A stretch of DNA of 39,708 bases from a bacterium (GTDB lineage Bacteria; Chloroflexota; Dehalococcoidia; Tepidiformales; Tepidiformaceae): contig JAFKFP010000077.1 in NCBI GenBank assembly GCA_017308185.1, forward strand, positions 1-39,708, in the 5' to 3' direction. A model generated the notes under the pieces. The model was not told where the DNA came from. It saw only the letters and a list, made by a program, of their open reading frames with translations, and searched no databases. Below are positions 3,664-8,939 of the stretch, piece after piece (the stretch's first letter is position 1; each line of letters begins with the position of its first letter). A program made the position numbers and the translations under genes.

Positions 3664-6600
3664 CTACTCGGTGAGGCGCCGGTAGAGTTGCGGCAGGCGG
3701 CTCGGCAGCGACTCGATATCGGCGACGACTTCGTAGCCCATGTCTTCGCACATGGTCTTGAGGTAGTCGTGGCCAGCGCGGTCGACCGTGAGCGCGAACG
3801 GCGTGATGCCCTCGCGCTTGGCTTCGTTCAGCGCCTGCTTGGTGTCGTGGATGGCGTATTCCTTCTCGGTGCGGTCGCGGCCATAGCCGTGGTCCTGCGG
3901 GCGACCATCGCTGAGCAGGAACAGGATCTTCACCTTGGCATCGGTCAGATTCAGCTTGTGCGTCGCGTGGCGGATGGCGGGGCCCATGCGGGTGGAGCGA
4001 ATTGGCGCGATCTTGTCGAGCCGCTTCTTGATCGGCTGATCGAGCGTCTCATCGAAATCCTTGATGACGAAGAACTCGACGTTGTCGCGGCCATAGCCGC
4101 TGAAGCCATAGATGCCGTATTGGTCTCCAATGGTCTCGAGCGCGGTCATGAGGAGCACGGTGGACTCCTTTTCGAGGTCGATGATGCGCTTGGGCGGCGC
4201 CGTCAGCTCCTGGCGGCGCTTCGAGACCCACCAGCTGAGGTACTTGCGGGGATCGTCGTCGTAATCATCGTCGTCGTATTTCTTTTCGCGCTTGTTGATC
4301 TCTTCGTCGGTGCTGGCAGACATATCGATGAGGAACGCGACGGCGACGTCGCGCTCGATCTTGTTGCGCCGCCAGTAGATTTTTTCGTTCGGGCTTGCAC
4401 CGGCTCGCTTTTCGACCATCCATTCGATGGCGGAGTCGATATCGATGTCTTCGCCGTCGGCGAGGCGCTTGAGTTTGCGGAACATCTCGGGCTTCATTAG
4501 TTCGAACTGCTTGCGCGTCTGGCTGACAAGGCCGGCGTGCTCGTGTAGCGCGTTCTCGTAAAAGTTCTCTTCGCCCTGTTCGAGCTTGGATTCCTTCACA
4601 GCGCACCAGCGAGGCTTGTAGTCCTGGGCGCGGAAGTCCCACTCGTCGTAGTAGTAGACGGTCACGATAGGCTGGAGCGGCTCTTCGCCGGCATCTTCGC
4701 CGGTGCTACTGTCGCTCGTGGGCTGGCCCTTCTGGGCTTCGCTGGCCTGCTGGCCGGCTTCCTTCATCAGATTCTGCATGAACATGCCGGTGCTCGCGTC
4801 GAGGTCACCCTCCATGAGCGCATCGAGGTCGATCTCGACGCTCTTTTCGAGGAGTTCGGCGAGCTGTTCGGGCGTGAGGGGCACTGGCGATTGCTGGCCA
4901 GCGTCGCCGCGCATCGCGTCCTGCTTGAGCTTCATGAGGAGTTCGACGAGTTCGGGCTTGAAATCGCCGCGGAAGTCGACCTGCTCGGGACTTTCGTAGT
5001 CCTGCTCACCCTCGCCCACATCGCCAAGCTGCATCTGGTTGCCTTCGCCGCCCATGTCGCCGGAGCTATCCATGGGGAGCGCCTGGCCGGGCTCCTGCGA
5101 CTCGACCGAGTCCCAATCCGTCTCGGGCATCTCGGCCGGCACGTTCGGGATGGCGATCGCGGCCTGGTAGAGGCGGATTGTCGCCTCGGCCGTGTCCTCA
5201 ACCAGGGCTTCCTCACGCGCGAGGACTTCGAGCATGCCGAGCGACTCGGCCACGACGTTGCTGTCGGGGCGGGACTTGGGCCACTTCACGGCATCGGCGC
5301 CATCCAGGCTGGCGCGGAGCAGGTTCTCCACGAAGGCCTGGCGGAGGGGGAGTTTCGTCACGTCGCCGCGGCGGTCGAGTTCGGCGCGTTGCATGCGGCG
5401 CAGGGCGCGGCGAATGCCACCATATTCGCGCTTCACGGCGCCATCGATGCGGGCGTCTTCGGCGATCGTGTACAGGTCAGCGGCTAGCTGGCGCTCGGGA
5501 AAGAGGTCGAAGAACCGCTCCATGTTCGTCACCGCGGAAGCGTCATCCGCTGTGACGAGACGCGACCGGCTATTGCCAAGCAAGTTGCCAGGCCGTTCGA
5601 AAAGGAAATCGAAGCTGCCAAATTCGATATGCGCCGCCTGGTGTGTCGCGAAGACCTTGTATGAGGCGAAGTTCTCATCCTTCTGCGGGTACCGTTCCAT
5701 TACCTCCGGCAGGAAGATCGTGGTGCCTTCGGTGCTGGCGCGATGCTCGTCGATCCAGCCGATGCCTTTCTCAGCCAGTGCTTCGGTCGATTGGATGCTG
5801 ACGTTCTGGCCGGTGAGCGCCTTGCAGTAGAGGCGGAGGATTTCGCCGATGCGGCTCAGCTCGACACGGGCTGAGAGCGTTTCGAGGATGTCTTCGCCGC
5901 GCGTTGACTGGAGGCGGAAGTACGCCTCACCGCCATCGTGGCTGCCCTGGAGGATGCGCAGGCCAGCAGCGTGCCACGGCTCAAGCTCATCGACGCGCAC
6001 ACGGTCGAGCACGGTGGGGACGTTTGCGATGAAATCCATTGCCGCATACGGCGAGTAAGGCGCCAACTGCTCGGCAAGTTCGATGATCTGATGATGGTCA
6101 TCTGGCTCGAGCTGGCCGAGGGCTGCCGCGGCTTCTTCGAAGAACTGGAAGGCGGATCGGTTATGGCCCCGAGCGACCTGTGCCGAGAGCAAGAGGAAGC
6201 GTTCGCGGAGCGGCGCATGCACCTTCTGGAGCAGCGGTGCGCCGCGTTCGAAATAGAGGCGGGAGTCTGCCCAGCTCGACTGGGCGAGTTCGACCGCGAA
6301 TGTGAGGAACGGGAGCCGGTCATCTTCTTCGAGGCGCGCGAGGACATCCGGGGAGGATGCGAGGCACGCAGACGCGAGTTCGTAGCTGTGGCGCGCCAGC
6401 TCATCGATGAAGAGGACGAGCCGGGCCGCCTGGCCGATGCGGAGGACGCCGAAGACGCTGGCGCCAGCATCATAGAACTGCGCAGCCAGCGAAGAGCTTT
6501 TCCAGTTGCCTTTGTAGAGGCGCCGGCCGAGATCGGCCCACTGCCGGACGTGGCTGGGGCCGATGGCCTGGATGGCGGCAGGTGACGAACGGAGGAACGC

Positions 6601-6903
6601 CACGGCAAGTGGCGCGGAGTCAGCCGCCATCGTCAACGATTCACGGCCGAGCGCTTCCATGGAGTCCCACGTAGCGTTGGATGGCAGGTTCACGCCGGCC
6701 CGGAAGTACTCGAGCGCGGCCTCCCAGGACCGCAAGCTGAGGCTGGTGAGTTCAACGCCCGTTTCGGCCCACGACTGGAGTTGGTTGGGCGAGAAACGCG
6801 AGGAGAGAGCGCGCAACCCTTCCTCGAATTGCTGCTCGAGTGGCGCCGGGAACCCCGAGAGTCGTTCATGGTTGCGGGCGACGAGGTCGGTAACGATGCT
6901 CAT
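3664..6903 (-). CDS. NorD/CbbO-like VWA domain protein (partner of the NorQ/CbbQ-type AAA+ ATPase)
   Basis: A large protein of 1079 aa. Residues 1 to about 560 are mostly helical and look like an alpha-solenoid. About 600-720 is a low-complexity acidic and Gln/Ser-rich linker. The C-terminal 225 residues form a von Willebrand A domain with the MIDAS DxSxS motif (DMSAS, D860) and the downstream LLSDGRPQD. In the NorD and CbbO families such proteins bind a hexameric MoxR-class ATPase and remodel a client enzyme (nitric oxide reductase or Rubisco) to insert or free a cofactor. The matching ATPase is encoded upstream in the same operon at 8046-8939. No Rubisco or NO reductase gene is nearby, so the client is unknown. 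A strongly acidic stretch (YDDDDYDDD) lies inside the VWA domain. Confidence 0.9.
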   Translation of the reverse strand: MSIVTDLVARNHERLSGFPAPLEQQFEEGLRALSSRFSPNQLQSWAETGVELTSLSLRSWEAALEYFRAGVNLPSNATWDSMEALGRESLTMAADSAPLAVAFLRSSPAAIQAIGPSHVRQWADLGRRLYKGNWKSSSLAAQFYDAGASVFGVLRIGQAARLVLFIDELARHSYELASACLASSPDVLARLEEDDRLPFLTFAVELAQSSWADSRLYFERGAPLLQKVHAPLRERFLLLSAQVARGHNRSAFQFFEEAAAALGQLEPDDHHQIIELAEQLAPYSPYAAMDFIANVPTVLDRVRVDELEPWHAAGLRILQGSHDGGEAYFRLQSTRGEDILETLSARVELSRIGEILRLYCKALTGQNVSIQSTEALAEKGIGWIDEHRASTEGTTIFLPEVMERYPQKDENFASYKVFATHQAAHIEFGSFDFLFERPGNLLGNSRSRLVTADDASAVTNMERFFDLFPERQLAADLYTIAEDARIDGAVKREYGGIRRALRRMQRAELDRRGDVTKLPLRQAFVENLLRASLDGADAVKWPKSRPDSNVVAESLGMLEVLAREEALVEDTAEATIRLYQAAIAIPNVPAEMPETDWDSVESQEPGQALPMDSSGDMGGEGNQMQLGDVGEGEQDYESPEQVDFRGDFKPELVELLMKLKQDAMRGDAGQQSPVPLTPEQLAELLEKSVEIDLDALMEGDLDASTGMFMQNLMKEAGQQASEAQKGQPTSDSSTGEDAGEEPLQPIVTVYYYDEWDFRAQDYKPRWCAVKESKLEQGEENFYENALHEHAGLVSQTRKQFELMKPEMFRKLKRLADGEDIDIDSAIEWMVEKRAGASPNEKIYWRRNKIERDVAVAFLIDMSASTDEEINKREKKYDDDDYDDDPRKYLSWWVSKRRQELTAPPKRIIDLEKESTVLLMTALETIGDQYGIYGFSGYGRDNVEFFVIKDFDETLDQPIKKRLDKIAPIRSTRMGPAIRHATHKLNLTDAKVKILFLLSDGRPQDHGYGRDRTEKEYAIHDTKQALNEAKREGITPFALTVDRAGHDYLKTMCEDMGYEVVADIESLPSRLPQLYRRLTE

Positions 6904-6967: not shown

Positions 6968-7579
6968 TCACAGGAGCCCCGAATGCGCGACGAATGAACG
7001 CGTCGGATCTGGATAATCGTAAAAGATGACTTCATCGCTTGTCGTGTCCCACACCGCGCACGAGAGTTGGAAGTCGTTGCGGGAGTCGCGCGGGTCGCCG
7101 GCTGAGCCGGGGTTCACGACGAGCGTCGTGCCGTGCCGCTGCGCCATCTTGAAGTGGGTGTGCCCACCGCAGACGGCATCGTAATCGAACGCAGCGGCCC
7201 GAGCCCAGATGGCCTCGGGGGGGTAGTGATACTCGTCCCACGGCTCCCAGGGCGAGGCGTGCGTCATCATGATTTTCTTGCCATCGACCTCTGCTTCGAG
7301 GCGGTACGGCTTCTCGCGCATCCAGGCGACGAGGTCCTGATCTATCTTGGGCGACGAAAGGGCGCGTTCGCCGTCGCGGCTGAGGATGGTCTCCTCGTGG
7401 TTGCCAAGCACCACGTGGGCGCCAAGTTCGCGGAGCAGGCCGACCACTTCGTTGGACCACCGAAACTGGAAGACGCTATCGCCCGCGCAGAACAGCTCAT
7501 CGATTTCGCCCATGCGTTCGAGGCCCTGCCTGAAGCCGGCGATGTTGCATTGGATGTCGGAGATGATGCCGAGCTTCAT
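6968..7579 (-). CDS. Metallophosphoesterase (YfcE/MJ0936-like) with altered first metal motif
   Basis: A 203-aa calcineurin-like phosphoesterase. The metal and active-site motifs are SDIQCN (D8), AGD (D34), GNHE (N60, H61), THASP (H107) and GGHTH (H140, H142). The first motif is normally DxHGN; here the histidine is glutamine (Q10) and the glycine is cysteine (C11). One metal site may therefore be altered while all other ligands are kept. Relatives of this size hydrolyse phosphodiesters, and no specific substrate can be named. The start overlaps the stop of the four-helix-bundle gene by 4 nt. The gap to the VWA gene downstream is 64 nt, so it belongs to the coaE-VWA operon. Confidence 0.88.
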   Translation of the reverse strand: MKLGIISDIQCNIAGFRQGLERMGEIDELFCAGDSVFQFRWSNEVVGLLRELGAHVVLGNHEETILSRDGERALSSPKIDQDLVAWMREKPYRLEAEVDGKKIMMTHASPWEPWDEYHYPPEAIWARAAAFDYDAVCGGHTHFKMAQRHGTTLVVNPGSAGDPRDSRNDFQLSCAVWDTTSDEVIFYDYPDPTRSFVAHSGLL

Positions 7580-7977
7580 GAAGCGCCTCGCCGAATGGGG
7601 TCCCCGGTCCTCAGTCCCCGGTCCCCGGTGGTGCGGCGCAGGCCCGCAACAATCCTTGCGGTGTCATCCGCGAGGGATAGTAGGCGCACGAGCTCGGATT
7701 CCGCGATGTGGCCAACGTCGTGAGCAATGTAGAGGTGCGACTTCACCTCGGCACAAGAACCCTTGGCGATGTCCAGGAAGCGCGCGAACTCGATGGGTCG
7801 ATTGCGGTCGAATCCTTCGGCGATATTCGCCATAACCGAAACCGCCGAACGCTGGATCTGGTCACGCAGGCCGAAATCACGCGTGAGATCGCCCGCGCGT
7901 GTGAGTGCATAGACCTCGCGGGCGAGCACGCGCGCACGCTGCCACGCCACTAGGTCCTCAAAACGTTCAACTGCCAA
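7576..7977 (-). CDS. Four-helix bundle protein (S23 / 23S rRNA intervening-sequence protein family)
   Basis: A small helical protein whose core (ERFEDLVAWQRARVLAREVY ... SVMANIAEGFDRNR ... EVKSHLYIAHDVGHI) matches the S23/avd-like four-helix bundle family. These proteins are encoded inside intervening sequences of some 23S rRNAs and also occur as stray genes. The function is poorly known; the related Avd protein binds RNA and a reverse transcriptase. The TTG at 7977 is preferred because GAGGAG precedes it with 6-nt spacing and it gives the family N-terminus. An alternative GTG at 8016 lies in the flanking repeat and has no Shine-Dalgarno. The last 18 codons or so run through the left inverted repeat, giving the low-complexity tail TTGDRGLRTGDP. 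It overlaps the next gene by 4 nt. Confidence 0.85.
   Translation of the reverse strand: MAVERFEDLVAWQRARVLAREVYALTRAGDLTRDFGLRDQIQRSAVSVMANIAEGFDRNRPIEFARFLDIAKGSCAEVKSHLYIAHDVGHIAESELVRLLSLADDTARIVAGLRRTTGDRGLRTGDPIRRGAS
7600..7630 (-). repeat. Left inverted repeat of the four-helix-bundle insert (heptamer array)
   Basis: Thirty-one bases made of four 7-nt units (GTCCCCG, GTCCTCA, GTCCCCG, GTCCCCG) plus GTG. Its reverse complement matches the 31 bases at 8014-8044 at 25 positions. All mismatches are in the first three bases of the second to fourth units. The repeat encodes the C-terminal tail of the four-helix-bundle gene. Confidence 0.85.
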
Positions 7978-8013
7978 GCGGTTCTCCTCACGTATCCCAT
8001 CGTTCCGGGATGT

Positions 8014-8044
8014 CACCGGGGACTTGGGACCGGGGACTTGGGAC
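8014..8044 (+). repeat. Right inverted repeat of the four-helix-bundle insert (heptamer array)
   Basis: CAC followed by four 7-nt units (CGGGGAC, TTGGGAC, CGGGGAC, TTGGGAC). It is the inverted partner of 7600-7630 and lies 1 nt from the stop of the AAA+ ATPase gene. In the minus-strand transcript the two arms could pair over most of 31 positions, including a perfect inner 10-bp stem, looping out the whole four-helix-bundle coding region. Confidence 0.85.
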
Positions 8045-8045
8045 T

Positions 8046-8939
8046 CTATTCGAAGATCGACGTCACAACCTCTTCGATGCTGCGCTGGACTTCCTGGTCA
8101 TCGGTGAGGGACCAGGTGACGGCCACCTGGCAGGCGCGGCGGGCGCCGACTCCGTTGGCGATGAGGCGGCCGGCGTAGACGAGGAGGCGCGTGGAGACGC
8201 CTTCGCCGAGGCCGTGTTCGCGGAGGTTGCGGACCTTTTCGCCGAGCCGGGCCAGGTCCATCGCTGTCTCGCGCGTGCAGCCGGATTCGTGAGCGACGAT
8301 CTCGGCTTCCTGCTCGCGCGGCGGATAATCGAACTCGATCGCGATGAACCGCTGGCGCGTGGAGTGCTTGAGGTCCTTGAGCGCACTCTGGTAGCCGGGG
8401 TTGTAGGAGATGACGAGAAGAAAGCCGTCATCGGCTTCGATGACCTGGCCGAGCTTTTCGATTGGCAACAGGCGGCGGTAGTCGGTCAGGGGGTGGATGA
8501 GGACCGTGGTGTCTTTGCGCGCCTCGACGACTTCATCGAGATAGCAGATAGCGCCAGCCTTGACGGCGCGGGTGAGGGGACCGTCAATCCAGCGGGTGCC
8601 ATCGGTATCGAGCAGATAGCGGCCGACAAGGTCGCTCGCAGTGAGATCCTCGTGGCAAGCAACAGTGATGAGCGGCATGCGGTGTTCGGACTTTTCGCCG
8701 GTGCCCGGAGCTACGCGGGTGATAGGGCGGCCGAGCTTATAGGCCATGTATTCGACGAAGCGAGTCTTGCCGGCGCCGGTAGGGCCTTTGAGCAGGACGG
8801 GGATGCGCTGGGCGTATGCTGTTTCGAACAGTTGCACTTCGTCGCCGATGGGCAGGTAGTACGGCTCATCGTGGACGGCGTACTCTTCGACATCATAGAC
8901 GGCGGACCTTCGTTCCTCGGTTGCTTCAACCACTGACAT
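8046..8939 (-). CDS. MoxR-class AAA+ ATPase, CbbQ/NirQ/NorQ type
   Basis: A 297-aa ATPase. Walker A is GPTGAGKT (residues 52-59) and Walker B is ICYLDEV (about 131-137). The [16 protein letters not shown] and [20 protein letters not shown] blocks are diagnostic for the CbbQ/NorQ/GpvN branch. Such ATPases form hexamers that act with a VWA-domain partner to remodel an enzyme; the partner here is the 3664-6903 product. The ATG at 8939 overlaps the coaE stop by one base (TAATG) with AGGGAGG just upstream, which fixes the start. A longer frame to 8984 is inside coaE. The gene is separated from its VWA partner by the four-helix-bundle insert and the phosphoesterase gene. Confidence 0.93.

Follow-up and report, generated by a model that had tools for sequence, protein, structure and literature searches.

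In the window analysed here, a stretch of 39,708 nucleotides, a gene of the S23/IVP family lies between the genes for a MoxR/CbbQ-type AAA+ ATPase and a metallophosphoesterase, and is bordered by two 31-nt inverted arrays of heptamers (Table 1). The original prediction, made from the sequence alone, had named these neighbours and arrays, with one array abutting the ATPase stop codon and the other encoding the C-terminal tail of the four-helix protein, and our analysis confirms each of these points. Positions 7600-7630 match the reverse complement of 8014-8044 at 25 of 31 positions, and somewhat longer arms (7592-7630 and 8014-8052) are 79% complementary over 39 nt. This arm pair is unique at its spacing, with none of 943 other pairs in the window scoring as high (maximum 11.5 versus 19.0). 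The likely start codon of the S23 gene is TTG 7977, behind the GAGGAG motif, rather than GTG 8016, and the stop codon of the gene overlaps the phosphoesterase ATG (ATGA, 7576-7579). The array-encoded C-terminal tail shows no conservation, and at locus L051 the stop codon precedes the array. The segment of about 450 bp is referred to below as the cassette. Downstream of the phosphoesterase gene, positions 3664-6903 of the minus strand hold a 1079-aa ORF with a VWA domain; MoxR/CbbQ-type ATPases are commonly partnered by VWA proteins.

Table 1. Features of the cassette and its neighbours in the window, with the S23 copies of the host genome.
Feature	Position	Strand	Remarks
Left arm (gene orientation)	8014-8044	-	Tandem AGTCCCA AGTCCCC GGTCCCA AGTCCCC GGT; starts 1 nt after the ATPase stop codon
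Right arm, inverted heptamer array	7600-7630	-	GGGGACC/GGGACTG type; codes the S23 C-terminal tail
S23/IVP four-helix-bundle gene	7576-7977	-	PF05635, TIGR02436; TTG start likely; longest ORF from GTG 8016
Candidate Shine-Dalgarno GAGGAG of the S23 gene	7984-7989	-	Read from the sequence
MoxR/CbbQ-type AAA+ ATPase gene	8046-8939	-	Upstream neighbour; stop codon (8046-8048) is one border of the insert
Metallophosphoesterase gene	6968-7579	-	Downstream neighbour; adjoins the ATPase gene directly in cassette-free relatives
S23 copy, window			Heptamer AGTCCCA/GGTCCCC
S23 copy, L001			Heptamer GAGGACT; between MerR/HspR-like and ClpB-like genes (names read from the sequence)
S23 copy, L003			Heptamer AGTTGCA/GGTTACA; weakest arms, visible by eye, score just under threshold
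S23 copy, L004			Heptamer AGGGAAC/AGGGAGC

The window protein (gene 7576-8016 on the minus strand as the longest ORF) matches PF05635 (E 5.7e-33; 113.8 bits against a cut-off of 33.8) and TIGR02436 (E 8.5e-31; 106.4 bits against a curated cut-off of 24), and by these profile scores and its modelled four-helix fold it is a plain member of the S23/IVP family, which it matches over its full length. In a Foldseek ranking its AlphaFold model (pLDDT 86) is closest to XCC0516 (2GSC; E 2.7e-06, TM normalised to 2GSC up to 0.92), followed by BT_0352 (2RLD) and, as a weak third, the diversity-generating retroelement (DGR) accessory protein Avd (4dwl, TM 0.64/0.85, E 0.037; 8ub7 was also matched), to which sequence similarity is weak at about 12%. 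The title of a paper cited in PMC3936711 describes 2GSC as five four-helix bundles. In an alignment of 139 S23 proteins, numbered by a 112-residue core, S43, N47 and E73 are invariant and Q36, E50 and S70 reach 99%. The window protein has the conserved Q-R-S-N-E and S-E polar set of the family, and a similar residue set is remarked upon in a passage of PMC3936711. Judged from the alignment, these near-invariant polar residues (Q36, S43, N47, E50, S70, E73) resemble a functional site more than a structural requirement. The S23 gene is under purifying selection, with dN/dS of 0.03-0.18 in most pairs (the near-identical pair L228/L231 is uninformative). In none of these respects does the window protein differ from its family; what is new is the DNA context, which is common to the family. 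Structures of S23-family proteins have been available since 2006 and, to our knowledge, no function has been assigned to them.

Within the cassette only PF05635, TIGR02436 and related S23 models were matched, with no DDE, HUH, Ser or Tyr recombinase found, and it encodes no recombinase, nuclease or reverse transcriptase (RT). Avd resembles S23 in having a four-helix fold in a five-fold assembly, and one may ask whether S23, as a relative of Avd, uses an RT supplied in trans that copies cassette RNA into DNA. The fold match and the strand asymmetry of the arms would suit such a retroelement-like process, as would the single, weak RT hit in the window's genome (G000:C406:3819-4322). In DGRs, however, the RT adjoins Avd, whereas none lies near the window S23 gene, the sole hit of the genome being on contig C406. 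RT hits occur in 7 of 38 family genomes against 28 of 38 for S23, and many S23-bearing genomes have none, so that we regard this process as improbable; dependence of the cassette on an RT was rejected because most S23-bearing genomes have no RT hit.

Heptamer arrays around S23 genes

The host genome, a MAG of 3.14 Mb, carries four S23 genes at four unrelated sites. A search for further array-flanked copies had been proposed with the original prediction, and it was rewarded: inverted heptamer arms border all four genes, and no two of these share a heptamer (Table 1). A scan of 84,980 species genomes for similarity to the window protein gave 80 loci from about 20 phyla, a sample that leans towards relatives of the window protein because the loci were found by that similarity. 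Scan and family loci combined yielded 142 unique elements, of which 140 were testable; most loci come from MAGs. At least one array is present at 125 of the 140 elements, compared with 18 of 245 windows lying about 1 kb from them, with arrays on the left in 86, on the right in 117 and on both sides in 78. The arrays have a median length of 4.4-4.5 units. Period 7 is dominant and periods 8 and 9 occur, the two arms being of equal period in 84 of 88 cases. Comparison of each left flank with the reverse-complemented right flank gave a mean score of 21.4, against 9.1 +/- 0.26 in 2000 re-pairings (n=137), and the inverted orientation outscored the direct one in 122 of these 137 comparisons. Inverted arms are also found at eight S23 loci of a plasmid collection, seven of them cyanobacterial and one from Riemerella, and GATTNNN-type arms occur in the four inspected members (L175, L177, L178, L183) of a divergent PF05635 subfamily (L175-L183) present in many family genomes. 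Carriage by phages was rejected, as no match was found among 50,697 phage records.

The arms share unit and period, and the unit tracks the S23 sequence across unrelated sites and phyla. Among pairs from different sites, the higher the S23 identity, the more similar the repeats (Spearman 0.244; permutation maximum 0.091; control flank -0.041), and cross-phylum pairs with at least 65% S23 identity have a repeat cosine of 0.67, compared with 0.05-0.07 for distant pairs. An exact (GAGTGCT)3 array occurs in 6 of 38 family genomes, at 1-22 mostly gene-less sites per genome. A GAGTGCT-type S23 cassette accompanies it in all six but the window's genome, where a single long solo array is present; one of the five cassettes contains an internal stop. 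The presence of (GGCTGTT)n likewise tends to follow that of its cognate gene (11 of 15 versus 4 of 23). Fisher tests of the two associations, which ignore phylogeny, gave P values of 1.2e-5 and 8.7e-4, and the association could partly be owed to shared ancestry of the genomes. In sampled stretches, period-7 arrays number 0 per Mb in two S23-free genera (480 kb) and 10-17.5 per Mb in S23-bearing genomes, and 15.6 per Mb in one species that lacks S23 although its genus carries it; arrays of other periods show no such pattern with S23 presence. The solo (GAGTGCT)n array of the host genome lies at G000:C273:10945-11021, with no cognate S23 gene nearby. In a filled/empty comparison for a solo array, the flanking gene had no counterpart in the relatives searched.

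These data bear on whether the window simply holds an ordinary gene beside unrelated simple repeats, the arrays being common genome decoration. Heptamer arrays do occur elsewhere in the genome, but the arms match within loci, share their period and track the protein, and far windows lack arrays. We give this explanation almost no weight, and a chance neighbourhood of simple repeats is refuted by the array enrichment, the arm matching and the shared period. A G-quadruplex function of the arrays was also rejected, since many units (GAGTGCT, GTTGCAA) have no G-runs. The original prediction had seen its own undoing in heptamers scattered away from S23 genes together with relatives that all retain the gene in this place without conservation of the repeats. 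Arrays away from S23 genes do exist, but those of a given heptamer are confined almost wholly to genomes with the cognate gene, and relatives have empty sites.

Filled and empty sites

At the window's own site, 30 family loci were fetched by the phosphoesterase, and the ATPase gene stands beside it in all 30. Nine of these loci, the window included, hold the cassette, and L081 is a further filled copy beyond the nine. In 13 cassette-free loci the gap between the two genes is -1 to 26 nt, which is the adjacency in relatives that the original prediction had proposed as a check. Seven loci have a 64-80-nt gap without S23, and L036 (G006) is a relic with a single array and a decayed S23 start. The heptamers at this site vary by genome (GAGTGCT, GAGTTCC, GAGTACC, GTCCCTC and others), with the arms agreeing within each. 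In the S23 tree all proteins of the site fall in one well supported 20-row clade, alongside other cassettes, and other S23 sites are likewise common to several genera. Because of this, the insertion looks old and mostly vertically inherited, with loss in several lineages and both arms drifting together. A recent insertion was rejected on the same grounds of tree and site grouping, and with a single S23 clade at the site there is no case for repeated insertion there.

Here and elsewhere, the cassette behaves as a single unit that a site either carries or lacks. One intergenic site within a single genus has the cassette in G031, G032 and G034, whereas all that G028, G029, G030 and G033 have there is a short array; the flank on one side is about 90-97% identical across G028-G034. 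At this site G031 (L144, G031:C57) and G032 (L008, G032:C8) carry cassettes of opposite orientation and different heptamers, with S23 DNA 77% identical and flanks 94% and 83% identical. The short array kept by the "empty" alleles L204-L210 is CTAGTGGCTGGTGGCTGGTAG, which begins with the same sequence as the filled allele's left arm and may be either a target or a scar.

Cyanobacterial plasmids provide further pairs. At site A the filled and empty alleles have flanks 98.9/97.3% identical; the empty allele (Nostoc linckia NIES-25, Tolypothrix PCC 7601) reads AAAGTTAAAAAGTAATTAACAAATAAATATGC, while in the filled allele (Trichormus variabilis, Scytonema) AAAAAGTAAT precedes the cassette and GTAATTAAC follows it. 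The insertion is accompanied by a 5-bp target duplication, GTAAT, at a TAA stop codon. Such a duplication is clear at site A and probable (TTCTA-like) at site C, and none is clear at sites B, E and F. The site-A cassette of T. variabilis ATCC 29413, on plasmid C, has an array of GGAGTCA/TCAGAAG units. Nostoc C052 has an internally deleted cassette remnant at site A. Cassettes of one heptamer family, with genes 77-82% identical, occupy the unrelated loci A, C (spot 1) and E, each of which also has empty counterparts. Site E lies within the last codons of a gene, where the cassette end provides a new stop. In L226, compared with L249 and L250 (also cyanobacterial plasmids), the upstream protein is shortened by roughly its last dozen codons and takes its stop from the cassette. 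Two neighbouring operon gaps in Nostoc plasmids (L224, L241, L243, L245) each hold a different S23 cassette, in different plasmids, and are an insertion hot spot. In Brasilonema octagenarum pBOCT2 (L236, CP030123.1 4423-6074) a gene-less heptamer hairpin replaces the cassette at site A, as expected of a non-autonomous derivative.

Cassettes settle in operon gaps, in both orientations and usually with a stop codon immediately beside them. Among 72 two-array cassettes the left array starts at a same-strand stop codon in 47 and the right array lies at an opposite-strand stop in 26; one side or the other does so in 58, against 9.7% of random positions, although this adjacency may partly reflect the shortness of operon gaps. 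Placement at gene junctions near stop codons, along with scattered cognate arrays, might be taken to indicate a host regulatory module in which S23 binds heptamers in mRNA and controls translation or stability, the arrays forming its regulon and the cassette being autoregulated. A post-transcriptional role has indeed been proposed for the TAACTGA arrays of Beggiatoa (PMC4679880). The patchy presence of the cassette among close relatives and the unrelated contexts of related cassettes argue against such a module, as does the lack of an apparent common function among the flanking genes in an informal look, and we consider it quite unlikely.

The original prediction had foreseen a long stem in the mRNA and offered an RNA-processing insert or a mobile cassette as alternatives. 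For an RNA-processing insert, the arms would pair in mRNA under selection for pairing, RNase III would cut, and the S23 segment would leave the operon transcript. The predicted fold of the window RNA does pair the arms (z -5.5), the arms co-drift at orthologous sites, and RNase III cuts the Coxiella 23S rRNA intervening sequence (IVS), which has an S23 ORF, tandem heptamers and terminal inverted repeats (PMC4990558). However, the two arms do not keep their units in register (32 cases scored above the shuffled mean and 29 below it, P 0.11), and with this negative result we make no claim of strict selection for a perfect stem. Cassettes antisense to the host operon also occur (L225, L144), site D being one between nrdA and nrdB, and single gene-less arrays are common. 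RNA processing as the main explanation seems unlikely, although more credible than a regulatory module, and the empty sites, the armed copies and the related cassettes at unrelated sites lend good support to mobility.

A probable minimal mobile cassette and its relation to known systems

Taken together, the data are best explained by a minimal mobile cassette consisting of one S23/IVP gene between inverted heptamer arrays, with S23 probably recognising the heptamers, and we assign this reading a probability of roughly 70%. The co-variation of unit and protein suggests that S23, which forms a five-subunit ring in a solved relative, recognises its cognate heptamers, probably with the nucleic acid wrapped on the ring. 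S23 would target both the cassette that encodes it and, in trans, arrays lacking a gene, and may bring about the insertion, multiplication or maintenance of arrays with host enzymes or through an activity of its own that has gone unrecognised. The median of 4.4-4.5 units per array would fit one unit per ring subunit, a correspondence that is suggestive only. A further-reaching proposal, which we advance tentatively and hold at somewhat less than even odds, is that S23 is the recombination or propagation factor of a distinct class of mobile element, with the heptamer read one unit per subunit and intergenic arrays as gene-less offspring. Excision at the RNA level, as in 23S rRNA, is possible alongside the mobile cassette and compatible with it.

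The cassette shares with transposons and MITEs the occurrence of filled and empty alleles at one site, but no recombinase-type domain was found in it, S23 models being the only matches. Like RAYT/REP and IS/MITE systems, it consists of one gene and has gene-less dependants whose occurrence goes with that of the gene; unlike them, it has neither HUH nor DDE domains, and its ends are tandem arrays rather than fixed palindromes or terminal repeats. Should movement be driven by S23 itself, the protein would be a mobile-element factor of very small size that lacks any known recombinase domain.

The closest known systems are the IVSs in 23S rRNA of Coxiella and Leptospira, which share with the cassette an S23-family ORF, terminal inverted repeats, a similar size (about 430 nt) and a sporadic spread; the Coxiella IVS also has tandem heptamers upstream of the S23 ORF (PMC4990558). 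The IVSs differ in lying inside an rRNA gene, whereas the window cassette lies between the ATPase and phosphoesterase genes of an operon. In the cassettes described here the arms are heptamer arrays, the unit tracks the protein and many copies occupy many sites. The Coxiella IVS is known as RNA cut by RNase III, and the cassette from DNA sequence and a predicted fold. The original prediction knew of no description of such an insert in a protein operon. This has to be narrowed, as S23 genes in cas loci had been noticed with regard to a possible function in PMC3936711, where the passage concerned does not mention arms, but it holds for the cassette: in the literature searched, which covered few subscription journals and no preprints, the IVSs of 23S rRNA were the only described elements of this form, and no link of heptamer arrays to S23 genes outside rRNA was found. 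The S23 genes in 23S rRNA and in cas operons may be insertions of one kind of cassette.

No other intergenic tandem repeat is reported to be as abundant in prokaryotes as heptamers, and there is "no clear clue" to what they do (PMC6344855). The link to S23 offers a first candidate partner for these widespread, unexplained bacterial repeats, and a candidate explanation for both repeat and protein. Intergenic, head-to-tail period-7 arrays with units similar to those found here are known as cyanobacterial STRRs and from Xanthomonas, Nostoc and Beggiatoaceae. The reported units include GGGAATC in Xanthomonas (linked here through the literature) and GGGGA(C/T)T in Nostoc (PMC4692102), as well as TAACTGA in Beggiatoaceae (PMC4679880), and among 186 heptamer arrays in X. 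campestris there were 70 cases of convergent pairs (PMC4692102). While the STRR-like arrays are intergenic, one arm in the window overlaps the coding end of the S23 gene.
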